Below are positions 6,621 through 24,689 of a DNA stretch of 33,219 nt, one piece after another; the stretch's first letter is position 1, and each line of letters opens with the position of its first letter. Location: the IMG/VR virus record IMGVR_UViG_3300048549_000117, positions 1-33,219 of that record; one strand, written 5' to 3'. Both the position numbers and the translations under genes were made by a program. The DNA comes from a virus. The notes under the pieces are model-generated. The model made no database searches, had not been told where the DNA came from, and worked only from the letters and a program-made list of their open reading frames with translations.

Positions 6621-7907
6621 TTATGCAATCCCGCGCAAATTCCTTCTGATGGGTTCACCCCAATCTTGCACTGGGTTGTATCCAATAGCCATGTAACGCC
6701 AAGCATCGGCCCCGTGTGAAGTCCAATCGTGAAGTGGTCTAGCTCTCCAAGCCTTGTTCTTTTCATCGAAGTCCCGCCTGTATTGTCTAAGAGTTTCAAC
6801 TCCCCGCGCACACTTTTCTTCGTCAAACCAACATCGCGCCAGCATTGATCTAGCTGCCTGTATTCCATCTTCTATTTGCAGCTTGGGAGCTATAGAAACA
6901 TTTCTAATTCCTAACGCATCTAATGTTTCAAGTCGGCTCTTACCTGTCCCCAGTTCTCTTACTCTGGCGTCGTGTGGCAAAATATGTTCTTCGTAATGAT
7001 AATTTTTATCGATCAATACTTTAGCATAATGGTCTAATCCAACCCCGCTGTTTTCGTAATAGTCGATCACCCGTATTTCTCCAGCCCCGTGAAACTGGCA
7101 AAACCATATCGATGTACTGTCAGAAATTCCTAGATCCCAACTTGTTATTACAGACATACTTGGATCATATGGGACGCTGGTGATCCTTCCATCATCCGTT
7201 GCCTTTTTCATTTCTACCCCGTAGTAAGCCCCCTCTATAGCTGCTTCGAAGGAACACTCAAACTCCTGAAGGTATCTGTTCTCACCCATTGTTTCTTTTG
7301 CATCGGCTAATTCTTCAGGGTCTAAGATATTTGTTTCTGATGCTTTGAACATCGCACTGAACCATGTTGGATCTGTCTTGGCGTGTTGCCACATTTCCCA
7401 GAACTCATTTTTTCCTTTGGGCGTTCCAATAATGCAGATCTTACCTTTACGATCTACTGTGGCTGGCCTGATAACATTAGGATAGGCAGATGCTGGGAAG
7501 TCAGCGTATTCATCGATGCAAACGTAATCGAAGTACAGCCCCCGTATTGCGTTGTAGTTATCACCCCCAAACAATCTAAACCTAGAACCATTATCAAAGT
7601 CTATTCGAAGTTCGCTGTGATTAACTTTAATGTTTGGAATATCCCGCGTGTATTGCAACACGTAGTCCCACGCTACAGCTTTCGCTTGGCTTAAATATGG
7701 AGCTATGTATCCTACCCTGACATTCTCACGATCAAGCTCTAAACATTCTTTAATCAGATCATTGATCACAGCTACGGTTTTACCGAACCTTCGATGCGCC
7801 ACGATAATAGCAAACCTTTCAGTTCGATCATGGAATGCATCCATTAGTTCACGCGGTTCGTAATCAAGCTCTATGTCGTGGAAGATTACTTCTTGGTCTT
7901 TCGCCAT
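6621..7907 (-). CDS. terL: Terminase large subunit (packaging ATPase and nuclease)
   Basis: This 428-residue motor protein translocates and cuts concatemeric DNA at the portal. The N-terminal ATPase has a Walker A variant AHRRFGKT (residues 37-44) and Walker B VCIDEYADF (D132, E133), with IIGTPKG as the coupling motif near 160. The C-terminal RNase H-like nuclease shows SWDLGISDST (D258, D263) and HGADAWRYMA (D401). Length is normal for headful or P22-like terminases. The ATG at 7907 overlaps the small-subunit gene by 17 bases after its chosen start, so the two are coupled. All key residues are present, so it should be functional. Confidence 0.96.
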   Translation of the reverse strand: MAKDQEVIFHDIELDYEPRELMDAFHDRTERFAIIVAHRRFGKTVAVINDLIKECLELDRENVRVGYIAPYLSQAKAVAWDYVLQYTRDIPNIKVNHSELRIDFDNGSRFRLFGGDNYNAIRGLYFDYVCIDEYADFPASAYPNVIRPATVDRKGKICIIGTPKGKNEFWEMWQHAKTDPTWFSAMFKASETNILDPEELADAKETMGENRYLQEFECSFEAAIEGAYYGVEMKKATDDGRITSVPYDPSMSVITSWDLGISDSTSIWFCQFHGAGEIRVIDYYENSGVGLDHYAKVLIDKNYHYEEHILPHDARVRELGTGKSRLETLDALGIRNVSIAPKLQIEDGIQAARSMLARCWFDEEKCARGVETLRQYRRDFDEKNKAWRARPLHDWTSHGADAWRYMAIGYNPVQDWGEPIRRNLRGIA

Positions 7908-8369: not shown

Positions 8370-8834
8370 TCAGACTTTTCTATGCAGCATGGCTTCACGA
8401 TATGGATCAAGATCGTATTCATCAACCATGCCCTTTCGCAAAAGGATGTCAGATTGCTTTCCAACGATATAACTTTCACACACCGCCTGTCCAGCTTTAA
8501 TCCTAGCCGCATTAATTTTGTAAGGATCTGGGACATACTTATCATCACCTGTTAGATCTCTAAACTCTGGACGCCTTGGTGCAATCTTTTTAGCAGCCGT
8601 ACTTAAATCTTTTTTAGTAGGCCAACTTCTTGTCTCCAAGTTATCAAATACCGCATCACTAAAATCTTTCCACCAGTCAACGTAGCCGCGTGTGGGTGCT
8701 AGTTTAGTTATCGCATCACAAAGGAACTCAGCCTCTTCTTTCATCAATTCTGGGTTACCTGACACGGCCCGTGGAGCATTTAGCCGCCCCAACATCTTTA
8801 GCATTAATTGTTTTAACTCTTCATTCCTAGACAT
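8370..8834 (-). CDS. Hypothetical replication-associated protein (possible helicase loader)
   Basis: A 154-residue, mostly helical soluble protein. It contains SNR-type charged helices, KLAPTRGYVDWWKDFSDAVF, RSWPTKKDLSTAAKKIAP and a C-terminal DPYREAMLHRKV. I do not recognise a family with certainty. It follows the O-like initiator with an eight-base overlap. In lambda-type phages that position is held by the P or DnaC-like protein that delivers the host DnaB helicase to the origin. No Walker motif is visible, so a DnaC-type ATPase is unlikely; a P-like loader remains possible. Role assigned from context only. Confidence 0.55.
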   Translation of the reverse strand: MSRNEELKQLMLKMLGRLNAPRAVSGNPELMKEEAEFLCDAITKLAPTRGYVDWWKDFSDAVFDNLETRSWPTKKDLSTAAKKIAPRRPEFRDLTGDDKYVPDPYKINAARIKAGQAVCESYIVGKQSDILLRKGMVDEYDLDPYREAMLHRKV

Positions 8835-9522
8835 TTGCTATTCCTTCCCTGTTAACAAACATTTCGTTTAGAACTTGATGTTGCAAGTTTTCTTTTGACA
8901 CTTCAATCTCATCATTCCATCGTTCTTGATTAAGCCAAGTGGCTGCGTGTGGAACAAACTTTTGATCCTTACCCTTACACACTGATGCAAAGAGATCTAC
9001 TTTTCTTAGAAGTTCATCACCTTCAATTTTTGTTAAAGCTTTAGCAATAGATTTTTCTGCTTGAGCCTTGCCAACCTTCCTTGGATAGCGTGACCAAAAC
9101 TCTTTAAAATAATCTATAACCTCATCAATTGATCTAACTATTACTACTTCATTACTTCCAAGGTTACTACTTACAAGGTTAGGGTCGTGTTTTGCAACTA
9201 GGGGTGGTTGCGTTTTACCACTAGGGCTAGTTGTATTTTGCGACTTGGGTTCAGCTAAGTTTAGAATGTAAGTATTTGAGGTAAATCCCCCGTCACTTCT
9301 CTTCTCTTTTACCTTACGAATAAATCCATGAACCATCAAAAAATCGATGTGTCTAATAACAGAAGTCTTATCCATTTCGCAACACTCAGCCAATCTGGTA
9401 AGGCTGGGGAAGCACTTATTAGTTTCACCGTTATGGTGATCTGCTAACCAATAAAGGACTATTTTAGTGGCTGGCTTTAACCCCTGTTGTTTCATGGCTA
9501 AAGCTGTCATATAGTGGGACAT
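8827..9522 (-). CDS. Replication initiator, lambda O-like (helix-turn-helix)
   Basis: A 231-residue protein. Residues about 10-85 form a winged helix-turn-helix of the HTH_36 type found in phage initiators (TKIVLYWLADHHNGE, FPSLTRLAECCEMDKTSVIR, FLMVHGFIRK). A polar linker (about 92-125) separates it from a C-terminal helical domain. That domain carries YFKEFWSRYPRKVGKAQAEK and FVPHAATWLNQERWND, common in DnaT/O-type replication proteins. The linker-coding DNA contains three 23-bp iterons, as in lambda O, so it probably binds an origin inside its own gene. The ATG has TAAGGAG upstream. With no phage polymerase or helicase in view, it would recruit the host replisome. Confidence 0.85.
   Translation of the reverse strand: MSHYMTALAMKQQGLKPATKIVLYWLADHHNGETNKCFPSLTRLAECCEMDKTSVIRHIDFLMVHGFIRKVKEKRSDGGFTSNTYILNLAEPKSQNTTSPSGKTQPPLVAKHDPNLVSSNLGSNEVVIVRSIDEVIDYFKEFWSRYPRKVGKAQAEKSIAKALTKIEGDELLRKVDLFASVCKGKDQKFVPHAATWLNQERWNDEIEVSKENLQHQVLNEMFVNREGIANV
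9190..9258. repeat. Candidate replication origin: three 23-bp iterons inside the initiator gene
   Basis: Three tandem units start at 9190, 9213 and 9236 with cores TTTTGCAACTAGGG, TTTTACCACTAGGG and TTTTGCGACTTGGG. The spacing is exactly 23 bp, which is not a multiple of three. The copies are therefore read in three different frames and cannot reflect protein repetition. To the left lie two 13-bp repeats, ACTTCCAAGGTTA (9154) and ACTTACAAGGTTA (9169), and an AT-rich stretch at about 9100-9155 that could unwind. The layout matches the lambda origin in the O gene. Confidence 0.7.
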
Positions 9523-9569
9523 GAGAATACTCCTTACATTGTTCTCACTTTTTATCTCTTTAAACTTAA

Positions 9570-9597
9570 ACCCCTAGTTCACGCTGGGGGTTTTTTT
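9570..9597. terminator. Hairpin terminator between repressor and initiator genes
   Basis: An 8-bp stem ACCCCTAG/CTGGGGGT (one wobble pair) with a 6-base loop is followed on the plus strand by seven T. Read leftward it is flanked by A7 and TTTAAGTTT, a weaker tract. The leftward repressor message would pass through it into the replication genes, so it may act as a partial attenuator; rightward it would block stray transcription. It overlaps the repressor stop codon. Confidence 0.65.
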
Positions 9598-9784
9598 ATT
9601 CACTATCCATTAAATAATCGGATAACCTTTCTACCGTATCATAACTGACGTTGCCCGTGTTGTCACGGACGCGATAGAAAGTATGGCGGGATAATCCCGT
9701 GGCATCGCATACCTTAGACGCCTGTCGATCTTGTATGGCTCTTCGCACATACTTTAAATTGTACATCATTCCAGCATTAAGCAT
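9596..9784 (-). CDS. Small Cro/CI-like helix-turn-helix repressor
   Basis: A 62-residue DNA-binding protein. An HTH spans about residues 22-58: ASKVCDATGLSRHTFYRVRD, then NVSYDTVERLSDYLMD, resembling the XRE/Cro fold with its typical 'xVERLxDYL' last helix. There is no C-terminal oligomerisation or peptidase domain, so it is closer to Cro or a minimal repressor than to a cleavable CI. ATG 9784 is chosen because GGAG lies six bases upstream; ATG 9796 lacks such a site. It is transcribed leftward from a promoter that overlaps the rightward early promoter. It is the most likely ligand of the CCTATA-type operators in the window, which is inference. Confidence 0.8.
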   Translation of the reverse strand: MLNAGMMYNLKYVRRAIQDRQASKVCDATGLSRHTFYRVRDNTGNVSYDTVERLSDYLMDSE

Positions 9785-9814
9785 ATTAATCTCCATTTTT
9801 TTTCGCTGCTAGGG

Positions 9815-9874: not shown

Positions 9875-10084
9875 GTGAATAATAAATTTAATCTGAAAAT
9901 GCAGTTAGTAATAAGGACTGCACTTTTTAATGTAATGACTGAAAGAAACATTATGCCTTTGGACAGTCATAAAATTCATAACGCAATCGTTGATGCTATG
10001 GAAAATCATAATAAGGATCAGGATGCAGACATGCATTTTTTTAATAAGAACAAGAATAAAGTATCTGGAAAGGAGATTGCGTAA
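9875..10084 (+). CDS. Small hypothetical early protein (69 aa)
   Basis: First gene of the rightward early operon. The GTG at 9875 has AGGAG eight bases upstream; an in-frame GTG at 9866 would overlap that site. The product is basic and Asn-rich (NNKFNLKMQLVIRTALFNVM, then HKIHNAIVDAMENHNKDQDA), probably two or three helices, with no known domain. Its stop overlaps the ATG of the annealing-protein gene (TAATG), so the two are coupled. By position lambda-like phages often have small regulators or recombination accessories here; nothing more can be said. Confidence 0.65.
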   Translation: MNNKFNLKMQLVIRTALFNVMTERNIMPLDSHKIHNAIVDAMENHNKDQDADMHFFNKNKNKVSGKEIA

Positions 10085-10725
10085 TGGCTAATAAGAAAAC
10101 ATCAGTGTGGGAGACACTATCGACAATCAATGTTTCTGAACGTGTCGAAAAGAAATATTTTAAAAACAAAAAAACTGGCAGAGAATATGGTCTGTCATAT
10201 TTGTCGTGGGCTTGGGCTTGGGCCGAAGTTAAAAAGCGGTATCCAACTGCATCATATGAAATACACGACGATATATTTTTTCCTGACAATACTGTCGAAA
10301 CCAGAGTAAGCGTCACCATTGAGGATCAGACCCACATGATGTGGCTACCCGTAATGGACTTTAAGAACGACGCCAAAGTTAACCCTACATCACGGGAAGT
10401 AAGTGACACCCGAATGCGTTGCCTGACTAAAGCTATCGCAATGCACGGGATGGGTCACTACATCTACGCGGGTGAAGAGCTACCCGAAGGTCAATTAACC
10501 GAAGAAGAAGCTAAGACTAACGATCCAAACTTAAACATGAGCCATGAAGAAAAGGCTGAAGCTTGGCTGGAGTTCTTTTACAACGATACAGTAGATGCAA
10601 CTAAGTTTGCAGAGAACGATAAAAAATTTCAACGGTGGTTCACAAGGGCTGATGAACTAACCCAAGCGTTACGTGAACGCATCAATGAAGCCTATCTAAC
10701 TAAAAAAACGGAGTTAATGTTATGA
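10084..10725 (+). CDS. Single-strand annealing protein, Sak/DUF1071 family
   Basis: A 213-residue protein whose N-terminal 140 residues match DUF1071: LSYLSWAWAWAEVKKRYPTA, WLPVMDFKNDAKVNPTSREV, RMRCLTKAIAMHGMGHYIYA and GEELPEG. This family belongs to the Rad52-like phage recombinases. They anneal complementary single strands during recombination-dependent replication and concatemer formation. The C-terminus (about 145-213) is helical and charged, probably for oligomer or partner contacts. It precedes SSB with an ATGA overlap, the classic recombinase-SSB pair. No exonuclease partner of the lambda Exo type is seen, though the nuclease-like gene at 11469 could serve. Confidence 0.92.
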   Translation: MANKKTSVWETLSTINVSERVEKKYFKNKKTGREYGLSYLSWAWAWAEVKKRYPTASYEIHDDIFFPDNTVETRVSVTIEDQTHMMWLPVMDFKNDAKVNPTSREVSDTRMRCLTKAIAMHGMGHYIYAGEELPEGQLTEEEAKTNDPNLNMSHEEKAEAWLEFFYNDTVDATKFAENDKKFQRWFTRADELTQALRERINEAYLTKKTELML

Positions 10726-11093
10726 AAGCTATTAGTATCGCAGGGCGTACAACCAAGAACTGTGAAGTTCAAACGTACGAAGGAAGGGAGTTTATTACCT
10801 TTTCTGTCGCGGTTGAAACGTATCAAAAAAAACAAAAGGGAGTAATGTTCTTTGAGTGTACTTACTACCGTACGGGTCTAGCCCCCCATATGCCCAAAGG
10901 AACCCCTGTAGCTGTGTCTGGGGAGTTTGTTGCTGACGAATACAATGGAAAGACGTACCTGAAAGTTCGCGCATCAGAGGTCACCCTGTTGGGTTCTGCA
11001 AGGAAAGAAGAAACAGCGTCAAATCCTGAACCAGCCCCGCCACAGCATGAGAATACAACGTCCCAAGACATGGACGATGAAATACCTTTCTGA
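10722..11093 (+). CDS. ssb: Single-stranded DNA-binding protein
   Basis: A 123-residue OB-fold SSB. It shows ISIAGRTTKNCEVQTYEGRE, FITFSVAVETYQKK, FFECTYYRTG, KGTPVAVSGEFVADEYNGK and TYLKVRASEVTLLG. A flexible Pro/Ser linker and the acidic tip DMDDEIPF follow, the tail through which SSBs recruit partner proteins. It coats single strands at phage forks and works with the upstream annealing protein. The ATG overlaps the upstream stop (ATGA), and the TGATG at its own end overlaps the next start. Slightly shorter than host SSBs, as usual for phages. Confidence 0.95.
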   Translation: MKAISIAGRTTKNCEVQTYEGREFITFSVAVETYQKKQKGVMFFECTYYRTGLAPHMPKGTPVAVSGEFVADEYNGKTYLKVRASEVTLLGSARKEETASNPEPAPPQHENTTSQDMDDEIPF

Positions 11094-11488
11094 TGGCTAT
11101 CAATTTGCAAATGGAACTAAGTGATGGGCAGCTACAGCCCGTCACACGTTACGACGCTGAACGCATGGAAGAATATGCAAACGGTCAACTGTTTAATATT
11201 AAAGCAGCCGCTAAGAGATCGAACCCTCACCATAACCTGTACTGGTCCACGCTTCGAAATGTGGCCCGTGATACAGGCAAGTGGCCCACAGAGCATCACC
11301 TACATGATGAACTAAAGATTGCTTGTGGCTACGTGCGTATCAAATTGTCGGGACTTAACGGGGAGCTAGTCAACATTCCTGACAGTATCCGTTTTGATAA
11401 AATGACCCAGAATGAATTTACGAAATACTTTGATCTTGCCATGCAGAAACTTGCAGAAGGAATTGGTTATGACCCTTTACGTGAATAA
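11093..11488 (+). CDS. Recombination-associated protein, DUF1367/NinB-like
   Basis: 131 residues. The motif order KAAAKRSNPHHNLYWSTLRN, HLHDELKIACGYVRIKLSGL and IPDSIRFDKMTQNEFTKYFD recalls DUF1367 and NinB proteins, which are found near SSB and junction-processing genes of lambdoid phages. NinB-type proteins bind single-stranded DNA and act in Orf-type recombination; this is family knowledge and the match here is by pattern only. It is coupled by TGATG to SSB and overlaps the next gene. No catalytic site is evident. The middle region seems shorter than in typical DUF1367 members. Confidence 0.6.
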   Translation: MAINLQMELSDGQLQPVTRYDAERMEEYANGQLFNIKAAAKRSNPHHNLYWSTLRNVARDTGKWPTEHHLHDELKIACGYVRIKLSGLNGELVNIPDSIRFDKMTQNEFTKYFDLAMQKLAEGIGYDPLRE

Positions 11489-11957
11489 GAGTGATCAGGA
11501 ACATGAGCATCGGGTATTAAATTTTTTAGAAAAGCGTTGGAAGTGTGACAGTGTCAGATCCTTAGAAAAGAAAGCAAGCTTCGATGGGTTCCTACATCGG
11601 GATGGTAAGCCCACAGCCCTAGTAGAAATACGTCGATTGAATTGCTACTCCAACAGTTATCCAGACGCTATGATTAGCTACACCAAAATTCAAAACTGGC
11701 AGACGCTGTATCCTGTTTTAAATTTGCCGTGCTTGTTTGTCGTTAATTGGCTGGATCAAGTTCGATACGCCAACATCGAAGATATAGTTTCGCACAGAGA
11801 CATTCGGGTTAGCCCAATAAGTAAAAATAGACGTAACCCAGAAGAGGACAGGGAGATTGTTTTTTATTACCCAGTTCAAAAATTTAAATTGATCGCAATT
11901 GATTTAGAAGCAGAAATCATGCACGATCCAAACAAGGTAGATAAATATGACCCATAA
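11469..11957 (+). CDS. Putative PD-(D/E)XK-type nuclease
   Basis: 162 residues from ATG 11469, inside the end of the previous gene; an upstream in-frame ATG at 11412 is less likely because it would lengthen the overlap. The N-terminal helix EHRVLNFLEKRW, strand CDSVRSLEKK, then ASFDGFLHRDGKPTALVEIR give the alpha-beta-beta-beta order of the PD-(D/E)XK core. D39, E53 and R55 sit in the D...ExK/R positions; Arg in place of Lys is an odd variant. The rest is a beta/alpha mix (WQTLYPVLNLPCLFVVNWLD) consistent with the fold. In this recombination operon it may be a resolvase or exonuclease. Activity is unproven. Confidence 0.6.
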   Translation: MTLYVNKSDQEHEHRVLNFLEKRWKCDSVRSLEKKASFDGFLHRDGKPTALVEIRRLNCYSNSYPDAMISYTKIQNWQTLYPVLNLPCLFVVNWLDQVRYANIEDIVSHRDIRVSPISKNRRNPEEDREIVFYYPVQKFKLIAIDLEAEIMHDPNKVDKYDP

Positions 11958-12219
11958 GTTCAAATATACCGACGAACAAATTATGATAAGGGCTATGCCT
12001 TGCCCTAAGTGTTTTGCTAAACCTAGAGAGTTATGCAAAAGAAAACCAAAAGCAAATGGTATGGTTAGAAACCACGAAGAACGAATGTTTTTATTTCACG
12101 ATCACGTTATGGAATGTTCTTATGGTGCTATGTATTTTCAAACACACTCCGTTCCTACTACAAAGAAAGCTTCTGATGAGTTAGACGAATTTGAAAGTTT
12201 ACTTGAACCATATGAGTAA
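11947..12219 (+). CDS. Small zinc-finger protein
   Basis: 90 residues with a C-x2-C-x7-C-x12-H zinc site (C19, C22, C30, H43) in MPCPKCFAKPRELCKRKP and VRNHEERMF. This is the pattern of the small phage zinc-binding domain often fused or adjacent to nucleases and DNA-modifying enzymes. Its role is unknown; nucleic-acid binding is likely. It overlaps the upstream nuclease-like gene by 11 bases and the downstream HNH gene by eight, so it is tightly co-translated and may be a subunit of either. The C-terminus is acidic (DELDEFESLLEPYE). Confidence 0.7.
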   Translation: MTHKFKYTDEQIMIRAMPCPKCFAKPRELCKRKPKANGMVRNHEERMFLFHDHVMECSYGAMYFQTHSVPTTKKASDELDEFESLLEPYE

Positions 12220-12556
12220 TCTAACAAACAGACCACCTTTAGGACTTAAAAAACCAAAAGATAAAAAAGATGCAAAATTTTTACAGAAAATCCGTGAATT
12301 ACCATGCTGCGTTTGCAAACGGTTTGGGCTGGTTCAACGATCCCCAACTACAGCGCATCACCCGATACACGACAGGTTCTCAGCAAGAAAAGTTTCAGAC
12401 CGACTTGCTATCCCGCTTTGCGACGATCACCACCAACAGCTTTGGGGAACCGACAAATCTAAACTGGCGATACACAGAAGTCCTTTGAAATGGCGTGAAG
12501 CTTACGGCCCCGACTATTCTTATTCTTTTTCATCCGTCCAAGAAACCGACACGTAA
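12212..12556 (+). CDS. HNH-like nuclease, DUF968/Ref-type
   Basis: 114 residues from ATG 12212 (a TTG at 12191 is in frame but lacks support). Cys and His ligands appear in order: PCCVCKRFG (C32, C33, C35), TTAHHPIHDRFS (H49, H50, H53), KVSDRLAIPLCDDHHQQLWG (C70, H73, H74). This is the layout of DUF968 and Ref-type HNH proteins, which cut DNA at recombination intermediates; Ref does so with RecA. Together with the neighbouring annealing protein it suggests D-loop or junction processing. Its last 37 bases overlap the opposite-strand rusA gene end to end. Confidence 0.7.
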   Translation: MSNLTNRPPLGLKKPKDKKDAKFLQKIRELPCCVCKRFGLVQRSPTTAHHPIHDRFSARKVSDRLAIPLCDDHHQQLWGTDKSKLAIHRSPLKWREAYGPDYSYSFSSVQETDT

Positions 12557-12966
12557 AGGGCTGGGCCGCGCTCTGGGTGACAGTAACGTTTCTGTGCCTT
12601 GATGGACACAATTTGCTTATCATCAGCATATACGGTGTGTATAAGCCCGTCTGCAACGCATTTGACGATGTTATCTAAGTCAGGGGTGGATGTGTGAGAG
12701 ATAACCCCATATTCAGCTTCTAATCGTTTTACTTTGGGCCACGACTTGGGGATCTCCATGAATGCTACAATCTCCAGCACCACGGGCCGTTTTGTTTGAT
12801 CGACATTCTGCTTAACCATCTGACCCCAAGCAGCCGCGTGTAAACGACGTTCATAATCTCTGGTCTTGTTTGGGGTGTAAATGTGACCCGCTTTAGTGAA
12901 CCGTGGACGCCCTTTACCAACAGGCTGACCCGACAATTCAATCTCTACTTTTGTTAGTTCGATCAC
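12520..12966 (-). CDS. rusA: Holliday junction resolvase RusA
   Basis: 148 residues. RusA hallmarks are visible: GQPVGKGRPRFTKAG near the N-terminus, STPDLDNIVKCVADGL (D96, D98, K102), and VYADDKQIVS (D115, D116). The acidic residues bind magnesium and the Lys is catalytic in E. coli RusA. It cuts four-way junctions so concatemers can be packaged. Start is GTG 12966 with AAGGAG six bases upstream. Oddly it points against the surrounding rightward operon and overlaps the end of the HNH gene by 37 bases. It may therefore be transcribed from its own promoter in 12967-13050, and the two messages would be antisense there. Confidence 0.93.
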   Translation of the reverse strand: MIELTKVEIELSGQPVGKGRPRFTKAGHIYTPNKTRDYERRLHAAAWGQMVKQNVDQTKRPVVLEIVAFMEIPKSWPKVKRLEAEYGVISHTSTPDLDNIVKCVADGLIHTVYADDKQIVSIKAQKRYCHPERGPALYVSVSWTDEKE

Positions 12967-22344: not shown

Positions 22345-22579
22345 GGTGCTTTCCCTTCCGTTCTATGAGCGTCATTGCATCTACATCAGCTTGCAACGAA
22401 TACTCTATTGCGTTTAACGCCCTAAGTATGGCGTGAGCATCCTCACGTTGTTCCACCTCTGAGGCACTGCTATTTGCAAAGATACGAAGTTGTGTATCCC
22501 GCAAATTCTTTATGGTTTCCTTAAACCATTCGTTCTCTAGTAATGATTTGGAGCGTTTTGCGCTCTGTTCAATATCCAC
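22331..22579 (-). CDS. Small hypothetical protein between portal and scaffold (82 aa)
   Basis: Helical: AKRSKSLLENEWFKETIKNL, EQREDAHAILRALNAIEYSL and DAMTLIERKGKHRGND. The pattern (two long helices with 'LLxNExFKExxxxL' and 'REDAxxxLxALxAIexxL') is one I have seen in small proteins encoded between portal and scaffold or capsid genes of many phages; function is unknown. It overlaps the portal by 11 bases and the scaffold by 14. A role as a head assembly accessory is likely from position. Confidence 0.65.
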   Translation of the reverse strand: MDIEQSAKRSKSLLENEWFKETIKNLRDTQLRIFANSSASEVEQREDAHAILRALNAIEYSLQADVDAMTLIERKGKHRGND

Positions 22580-24689
22580 TACCGTTCATTCCCATGTTTT
22601 TCATTTGTTCGTTATGCTGCCTTTCAGCATCCTGTTCTGCTTTGATTGACTGAGTATCAACCGCTGTTCCATACTGACCAAGAACTTTAGCAACCTCTAC
22701 CGCTAGATCTTGTACCATCTTATCACGGGCAAGATCATCATCCATACCCAACTTATGCATTTTGTATTGATTATCAATTGCAGTCTTTTGCATTTGAACT
22801 TGTGCCTCTGTTTGGGTTTTCATTGCTTCAGCTTGCATAGCCATAGTCATTGGATCTGGCTGTCCTTGCTGTTGTTGCATCATCATCATTTGCTGTTGTT
22901 GCTGTTGTTGGATCATTTGCTGTTCCATTTCTGGCGTCATAGGTAGAAAATGCCTGTCAATATTTCTAACGCCACCTATCGCCAGTATATCAGCCATTGT
23001 GTTTCTAAGCTGTGAAAGCGTTACAAGGCCGTTTGTAGGCCCGTAAGTCTGATATATCTGTTGCTGTATACCAAAAGCCATTTGCAGTGATGCTAGACGC
23101 TCTGCTTCGCGCCCAGTGCCTATACCGACATTAACTATTAGATCCATTTCTGTATTCCATGCCATTGGATCGACAGGAACAAATGAACCATTCATTCTCA
23201 TAACTTCTTCATCTTCAGAATTTTTGACGTAAAGATCCAACATCAATTTAAACAATCGACGCATACCACCTTCAGCTAAGTTTCTGGCAATGACTTCAGC
23301 TTGTCCAGCTTGCCCTTCCATCGATGCCGCCACACTAGTGGCTGTAGCACTCTTTAAGACTTCTGGATCTAACCCTTGCGCCATTTTACTAACGCCAGTT
23401 TTGTTATCAACTAGCTGGTCAAAATATTGTAGGGCTGGCAGTGTCTGAGCCGCTGTGAACGGAACCGCCATTTCGCCAATTGCGTTTAAATTTTTAACTC
23501 TGATAACGCGACCTATTTCATTTGAAAGTAAATCATCTACGGCAACCTGACCATCTACTATTTGCATGGCGGGATTGTTAACCAGCGCAGCGTTATCCAA
23601 TATTCCACGAAGCATCGATGTGGCTGCGTCTTGGTCATTCATAACCAAGTCAACCAATGACGTTCCAAACATTGCATGAGGCTCTGGATCTACTTCAAAC
23701 AATGCATATGGGGCATGATCAGCTTCATAAAAATTTAAAAGCTTGTAGTTTGCTCCAGCACAGATGAATTGGTAAAGCTGGGGAACACCAGTACCCTCAA
23801 TATCCAATTCCATAAAAGCTTGCGTGACCGTTATTTTTTTAGAAGAAGTGCTTGAATTTTCATCTTCACTTTCATCAACAGCATATCCACGACGTTCAAA
23901 TTCAGCCTCATCATCGGTTACAGAATAATCGCCACTATTTATGTCAGCTAAATCATCCATTGTGAAACCCATAGCAAGCAAATCTGCTACACGCATTTCA
24001 GAGCTATGACCGACCACATAATAATCATCAATTGATCTGGCATTCCTATCGCAGAACCAATCCTCTGGCGGCACACTTTCGACGCACATTTTACCATCTG
24101 GTTTTTGCCGTGAAATCTTAACAGCGTGTTCTGGCATTTCCATTTCAGCACCATCTTCATCCACTTGGATCTTCATAACTGCTTCATGTTCTAAAACTTC
24201 AACGTCATCATTACTGACCAGCAATGCATATTCATCATCACTTAAATTTCTGTAAGTATGAATTTCGCTTCTCATTGCGTCCATATAGTAGACGTAAGCA
24301 ATACCCATTTTCTTAACCAACGCATCTTGAAAAACGTCGTTAATAATTCTGTACCCGTTCATCTGTTGGAATTTATAATTAATAAACTGTGTCGCTTGCT
24401 CTGCCTGTTGTACGTCCTCTGGACCTCTGGGAACAAATTCTACTGGCTTATCACTAGCCAAGAATACACGCTGTAACGACGGCTTAATCCCGCGAACCAC
24501 CTCACGACACTTGGTAGCTACGACACTTGATCGGCCCTCTTCGTGTTCCAGATCTGTTTCTAGATCAAAATACTTTTGAGCTTTTGTCCTTTGAGGTGTA
24601 ATTTCACCCGATATAAAATCTACCGCTTCCTCAATAGCATGAGAAACTATACCTTCAATTTGCGTTTGGTCTAATGGTTCTAATTCCAT
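22569..24689 (-). CDS. Portal protein
   Basis: 706 residues, the dodecameric ring at the head vertex through which DNA passes. The N-terminal half has YFDLETDLEHEEGRSSVVAT and REVVRGIKPSLQRVFLASDK. ALVKKMGIAYVYYMDAMRSE and PDGKMCVESVPPEDWFCDRN follow, then MFGTSLVDLVMNDQDAATSM with a helical stem ending in MAQGLDPEVLKSATATSVAA. These strings are typical of podovirus portals. A Gln/Met-rich tract (QQQQQQQMMMMQQQQ) near residues 590-610 precedes a charged C-terminal barrel. It lies between the ejection proteins and the scaffold. ATG has AGGAGAAATA upstream. Confidence 0.92.
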   Translation of the reverse strand: MELEPLDQTQIEGIVSHAIEEAVDFISGEITPQRTKAQKYFDLETDLEHEEGRSSVVATKCREVVRGIKPSLQRVFLASDKPVEFVPRGPEDVQQAEQATQFINYKFQQMNGYRIINDVFQDALVKKMGIAYVYYMDAMRSEIHTYRNLSDDEYALLVSNDDVEVLEHEAVMKIQVDEDGAEMEMPEHAVKISRQKPDGKMCVESVPPEDWFCDRNARSIDDYYVVGHSSEMRVADLLAMGFTMDDLADINSGDYSVTDDEAEFERRGYAVDESEDENSSTSSKKITVTQAFMELDIEGTGVPQLYQFICAGANYKLLNFYEADHAPYALFEVDPEPHAMFGTSLVDLVMNDQDAATSMLRGILDNAALVNNPAMQIVDGQVAVDDLLSNEIGRVIRVKNLNAIGEMAVPFTAAQTLPALQYFDQLVDNKTGVSKMAQGLDPEVLKSATATSVAASMEGQAGQAEVIARNLAEGGMRRLFKLMLDLYVKNSEDEEVMRMNGSFVPVDPMAWNTEMDLIVNVGIGTGREAERLASLQMAFGIQQQIYQTYGPTNGLVTLSQLRNTMADILAIGGVRNIDRHFLPMTPEMEQQMIQQQQQQQMMMMQQQQGQPDPMTMAMQAEAMKTQTEAQVQMQKTAIDNQYKMHKLGMDDDLARDKMVQDLAVEVAKVLGQYGTAVDTQSIKAEQDAERQHNEQMKNMGMNGSGY

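Follow-up and report, generated by a model that had tools for sequence, protein, structure and literature searches.

The window analysed here is the whole stretch of 33,219 nucleotides of DNA from an uncultivated marine phage, and the features of interest lie within a minus-strand gene encoding a protein of 231 aa (8827-9522). This protein matched the profiles phrog_270 (7.5e-39 over residues 1-217), the O-like phrog_391 (1e-17) and HTH_36 (5.8e-13; 48.9 bits against a cut-off of 25), is annotated by profiles as a replication initiation protein with a primosomal-type C-terminal domain and, judged on these matches, is a member of the phrog_270/HTH_36 phage replication initiators. An AlphaFold2 model consisted of an N-terminal winged helix (residues 1-90, with a helix at 52-64 and wing strands at 68-74 and 80-87), a linker predicted to be disordered (residues 93-126, pLDDT < 50), and a helical C-terminal domain from about residue 132; fold matches included MarR-like proteins. 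The linker-coding DNA hosts the repeats described below. An earlier sequence-only reading had placed a lambda-like origin within an O-like gene here. The lambda-like layout was upheld. Membership of the lambda O family was ruled out, as profile search gave no match to PF04492 (Phage_rep_O), which lambda O as a control matched at 5.7e-36, and BLASTP gave no significant similarity between the initiator and lambda O.

The initiator gene is overlapped downstream by a gene for a 154 aa protein (P0002; 8370-8834, minus strand) with no profile match, homologues of which follow the initiator in most relatives. Profile search of this downstream protein thus identified no recognised helicase loader next to the initiator; by position alone it is a candidate partner or helicase loader. 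Upstream lies a Cro-like HTH gene (66 aa; 9596-9796, minus strand; phrog_18104, 1.6e-07), and between it and the initiator start a terminator-like hairpin (9568-9593, plus strand), antisense to the operon, recalls lambda oop. An antisense hairpin of any strength was present in only 6 of 47 genomes, with comparably strong examples only in L011 and L086, and a lambda-oop-like antisense RNA was therefore left out of the finding. An Rfam scan of the window returned no RNA family. A recombination set adjoins the origin region at 10084-12966 (Sak-like annealing protein, SSB, NinB-like protein and RusA resolvase). A pelagiphage-like large terminase and a portal of phrog_1216 are encoded at 6621-7907 and 22569-24689, both on the minus strand, the terminase being nearest to those of pelagiphage HTVC podoviruses (46-49% identity). 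The pelagiphage-like packaging module and the replication module, with related initiators in Rhodobacterales, point to different host groups.

Within the linker-coding part of the initiator gene, three 14-bp cores recur at exactly 23-bp spacing. Matches to TTTTRCNACTWGGG were found at 9190-9203, 9213-9226 and 9236-9249 on the plus strand and nowhere else in the 33,219 bases, against a chance expectation of 0.01 per window; three copies were obtained in 0 of 100 shuffles. The contiguous 23-bp units span 9183-9251 (spacings 23 and 23) and, numbered in the reading direction of the gene on the minus strand, comprise iteron 1 (9229-9251), iteron 2 (9206-9228) and iteron 3 (9183-9205), all three kept in position in relatives. 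Each contains an imperfect inverted repeat (9230-9244, 9207-9221 and 9184-9198, respectively) with 5-bp arms around an A-rich centre, reading on the coding strand GTCGC-AAAAT-ACAAC, GTGGT-AAAAC-GCAAC and GTTGC-AAAAC-ACGAC, or GTYGC-AAAAY-RCRAC with half-sites GTYGC/GYRAC; this symmetry was judged by reading the sequence in the window and its relatives, not by a statistic. The pitch of 23 is not divisible by 3, and when codons were shuffled synonymously with the protein held fixed, the observed repeat score was matched in 3 of 5000 shuffles. The iteron repeats exceed both chance and protein-coding need and are under constraint at the level of DNA. The pattern count and the shuffles bear out the earlier claims that three repeats lie at exact 23-bp spacing in the linker and that this period, by shifting the reading frame, places selection on the DNA.

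A protein search of viral contigs yielded 80 relatives, across which the array was again found. A set of 39 representatives with less than 80% N-terminal identity was made up of 23 from this search and the others from a scan for the paired word described below. The tandem array exceeded the synonymous null at the 5% level in 37 of the 39, the two failing being L044 and L076. Pitch was 22 bp in 19 genomes, 23 in 16, 24 in 2, and 21 and 26 in one each, and so lay between 21 and 24 in 38 of 39 representatives; neither of the common pitches, 22 and 23, is divisible by 3. Across 50 dereplicated genomes the register of the third core relative to the invariant pair was the same; iterons 2 and 3 were spaced 23 bp apart in nearly all, and iterons 1 and 2 mostly 22 bp. 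Conservation of the cores in relatives had been proposed as a check, and the outcome was favourable: close relatives (86-100% protein identity) retained the iteron cores, and distant relatives (to approximately 40% identity) carried a palindromic repeat of another, clade-specific sequence, internally consistent and with place, pitch and register unchanged. One near-identical initiator gene (L010:1122-1815) was frameshifted by one base where the linker begins, reflecting either a contig error or a broken gene. In L090, L093, L100, L129, L144, L154, L189 and L192 the N-terminal domain, iterons and pair are common and the C-terminal domains apparently unrelated, so that modules appear to have been exchanged directly after the origin cassette.

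Iterons were alike within a genome (mean identity 78% over 17 bp) and differed between clades. In Mantel tests without tree correction, iteron distance correlated with recognition-helix distance (r = 0.61; partial correlation 0.55 with the rest of the domain taken into account; 0 of 2000 permutations). Sliding-window covariation peaked at initiator residues 46-57, and the best single covarying residues were 53, 51 and 56, where the predicted recognition helix begins, followed by 75 and 80 in the wing. For pairs of initiators less than 72% identical elsewhere, iteron similarity was 0.64 with an alike helix and 0.31 with an unlike one. By eye, helix SRRSVE was associated with ATGCGCA, SKRAVQ with TGGCAGAATCTGCCA, D(K/R)STVIRH with GTYGC, and (T/S)DRSVR with AGGAA. 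As would be expected of an initiator and its iterons, the repeat sequence tracks the recognition helix, which supports the sequence-only reading.

A second element, TAACCTTG(G/T)AA present twice at a distance of 15 bp, directly abuts the iteron array. On the minus strand, copy 1 (TAACCTTGTAA, 9171-9181) lies directly beside iteron 3 and copy 2 (TAACCTTGGAA, 9156-9166) 15 bp from copy 1. These are the two "13-bp repeats" previously mentioned beside the iterons, TT(C/A)CAAGGTTA at 9156-9166 and 9171-9181 with a spacing of 15. Their presence was correctly noted; their standing as a side remark underrated them, as comparison of the genomes showed stronger conservation for the pair than for the iterons. 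In the 23 representatives found by protein similarity alone, conserved residues over most of the gene had a codon homozygosity close to the background set by codon usage, but N115, L116, N120, L121 and G122 reached 0.88-1.00. Codons of the pair were fixed (CTT at 40 of 41 Leu, AAC at 45 of 45, GGA at 21 of 21), with synonymous sites elsewhere mostly saturated. Members of the pair with core changes were seen in L045 and L064. Codon bias above background was also observed at initiator residues K11 (AAG), Q12 (CAA in 22 of 23) and S40 (AGC in 17 of 21), within 9522-9403 on the minus strand.

Searching viral contigs for the paired word gave at least 119 stretches, and among the matches listed the word was read in one and the same frame of an ORF of initiator type in every distinct viral context examined. 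The same word was matched 7 times in 84,980 bacterial and archaeal genomes. Three matches were in Rhodobacterales, with L189 (Donghicola) and L192 in initiator genes and the context of L191 (Thalassobacter) duplicating another locus. The remaining four (L190, L193, L194 and L195) were repeat-rich or intergenic, lay outside initiator genes and were rejected as initiator origins; L190 (5608-5648, Glaciecola pallidula) has three TAACCTTGTAAGTGT repeats 15 bp apart in a short ORF or between genes, and not in a gene of initiator type. Gamma-phage relatives carried GAACCAGTCA twice, 17 bp apart, at the same place. The two copies are read as RTSH and EPV, and a pair read in two frames argues for selection on the DNA; with respect to the GAACCAGTCA word as a whole, all 89 distinct contexts found shared one frame. 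A scan with the SfV O protein gave near-identical copies only, and cultured gamma phages of 29-48% identity were therefore used; of nine such phages found by protein similarity, six matched at 20/20 and one at 18/20. Arthrobacter phage Kuleana carried four GAACC repeats in three frames. The words by phage host group were TAACCTTGKAA (alpha), GAACCAGTCA (gamma) and GAACCGTCC (Arthrobacter). Clustering of AACC as a general statistic in cultured phages was weak per gene, so that a wider occurrence, outside alpha and gamma phages, is no more than a lead.

Seen from the iterons, the invariant pair is followed by 9096-9155, a candidate DNA unwinding element where the duplex is less stable than anywhere else in the gene (0.33 percentile of the window by nearest-neighbour stability). 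AT content was 71% at 9100-9182 compared with 62% for the gene, confirming the AT-rich stretch earlier reported beside the iterons, and AT enrichment at this place was seen in 45 of 50 relatives. GC skew, which had been put forward as a further check, did show a local minimum near 9.8 kb. As the direction of transcription switches at the same point, this minimum is uninformative as independent evidence, and it was dropped. No DnaA boxes (TTWTNCACA) were present within 3 kb of the origin, which in this respect differs from an iteron plasmid origin with host DnaA.

Lambda and its near kin supply most of the known cases of an origin inside an initiator gene. The annotation of lambda lists four iterons within O, spaced 20-24 bp apart. 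These iterons are imperfect 19-bp inverted repeats bound by dimers of O, which cause the DNA to bend and, if it is supercoiled, open the adjacent A+T region of 40 bp, after which O and P hold single strands and bring DnaB (PMC5043065, PMC7466680). The locus described here is like lambda in having iterons inside the initiator gene, an AT-rich neighbour and a Cro-like gene upstream, in the A-rich centre of its inverted repeats (CCCTC-AAAAC-GAGGG in lambda, GTYGC-AAAAY-RCRAC in the window), and in the order of palindromic iterons with low-stability DNA beyond, here with the invariant pair between them. It differs in carrying three iterons, not four, and an initiator of HTH_36/phrog_270 in place of O (PF04492). 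No AACC pair was found at the corresponding place in lambda, and by eye there was no equally clear counterpart of TAACCTTGKAA, only ACAAAAGA twice, 15 bp apart. The HTH_36 genes annotated as "primosomal protein I / replication protein O" in SfV, ZF40, Vibrio and Pseudomonas phages are of the same domain family and likewise contain linker repeats of 20-25 bp followed by a short repeat pair, but differ in having GAACCAGTCA at 17 bp and in their iteron half-sites, C-terminal domains and neighbours. No published description of HTH_36-type phage origins was found in the openly licensed papers searched, which cover lambda and Stx origins and DUE repeats generally. The DUE repeats of oriC and iteron plasmids (13-mers, DnaA-trio, RctB ssDNA motif) also place short repeats with a possible role in strand capture between initiator sites and the melting region (PMC10797057). 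Those words vary between replicons, whereas here one word is fixed across phages with differing iterons. Within a layout already known, what is new here is the invariant pair, together with a helix-iteron code that can be read.

These data indicate that the locus is very probably a theta-type phage replication origin of lambda layout, embedded in its own initiator gene and read by the product of that gene, and the sequence-only interpretation is supported. The winged-helix initiator would bind the three imperfectly palindromic iterons through its recognition helix, probably as dimers, and the bound protein would assemble an O-some-like complex that opens the AT-rich DNA on the far side of iteron 3. 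Lying between iterons and AT-rich DNA, the invariant pair most likely takes part in opening, with one strand of it held by the conserved part of the initiator (the N-terminal helices) or by a host factor; this may permit loading of the host helicase, perhaps by the product of the overlapping downstream gene, and a bidirectional start of replication. The iterons would thus serve assembly, the invariant pair strand opening or capture, and the AT-rich DNA melting. As the iterons are clade-specific and the pair generic, the pair would serve a step that all these phages share. A reading of the iterons as operators of an autoregulating winged-helix repressor, with no origin at this place, would suit the MarR-like fold matches and the Cro-like regulator gene upstream. 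We consider it very unlikely, as the sites lie approximately 270 bp inside the coding region, not at a promoter, with no strong promoter predicted there; the profiles are those of replication initiators with a primosomal-type C-terminal domain, cultured annotated homologues adjoin helicase or P-like loader genes, and the low-stability stretch and invariant pair abut the array.

With respect to the pair itself, the 15-bp pitch of the alpha group is in frame and encodes NLGxNNLG, and synonymous constraint alone would fit a function in either DNA or RNA. Action of the pair in mRNA or as a protein motif NLG..NLG is nonetheless highly improbable, since its codons are fixed far past amino-acid need, a G to V change preserves most of the DNA word, and the pair sits in a disordered linker in fixed register to the iterons; codon fixation and the two-frame gamma version rule out the protein motif. 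A more serious alternative, which we regard as possible if somewhat doubtful, accepts the array as an origin and takes the pair to be the site of a host factor (a nucleoid-associated or replication protein) and not a contact of the initiator. The pair stays unchanged where iterons, C-terminal domain or downstream gene have been swapped, and phages of different hosts carry different words, both of which favour this alternative. On the other hand, host chromosomes lack the paired word except in prophage-like initiator genes and a handful of repeat-rich stretches; it is missing from Caulobacter phage Sansa, which has an alphaproteobacterial host and a diverged initiator; and it tracks the conserved N-terminal helices of the initiator. 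Returning to the origin as set out above, we tentatively propose that HTH_36-type origins may have a second obligatory part, an invariant AACC-containing pair (TAACCTTGKAA in alpha, GAACCAGTCA in gamma and GAACCGTCC in actinobacterial phages), that would serve a host factor, or the conserved face of the initiator, in opening or holding one DNA strand.

At least 50 natural initiator-iteron pairs are available on one scaffold, and the tracking of the half-site by three helix residues makes the recognition code readable and testable. The paired word offers a sequence-only origin finder for uncultivated phages, as among the matches listed it occurred in viral contigs only inside initiator-type genes. 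According to a 2024 review, iteron-bound O is without a solved structure and models of origin opening are still debated (PMC10797057); the invariant pair, one 26-bp word of fixed sequence and position beside interchangeable iterons, is a precise target for the question of strand opening. If the proposal is true, the pair would be the phage counterpart of the DnaA-trio, unchanged amid free exchange of iteron specificity, C-terminal domain and helicase partner.
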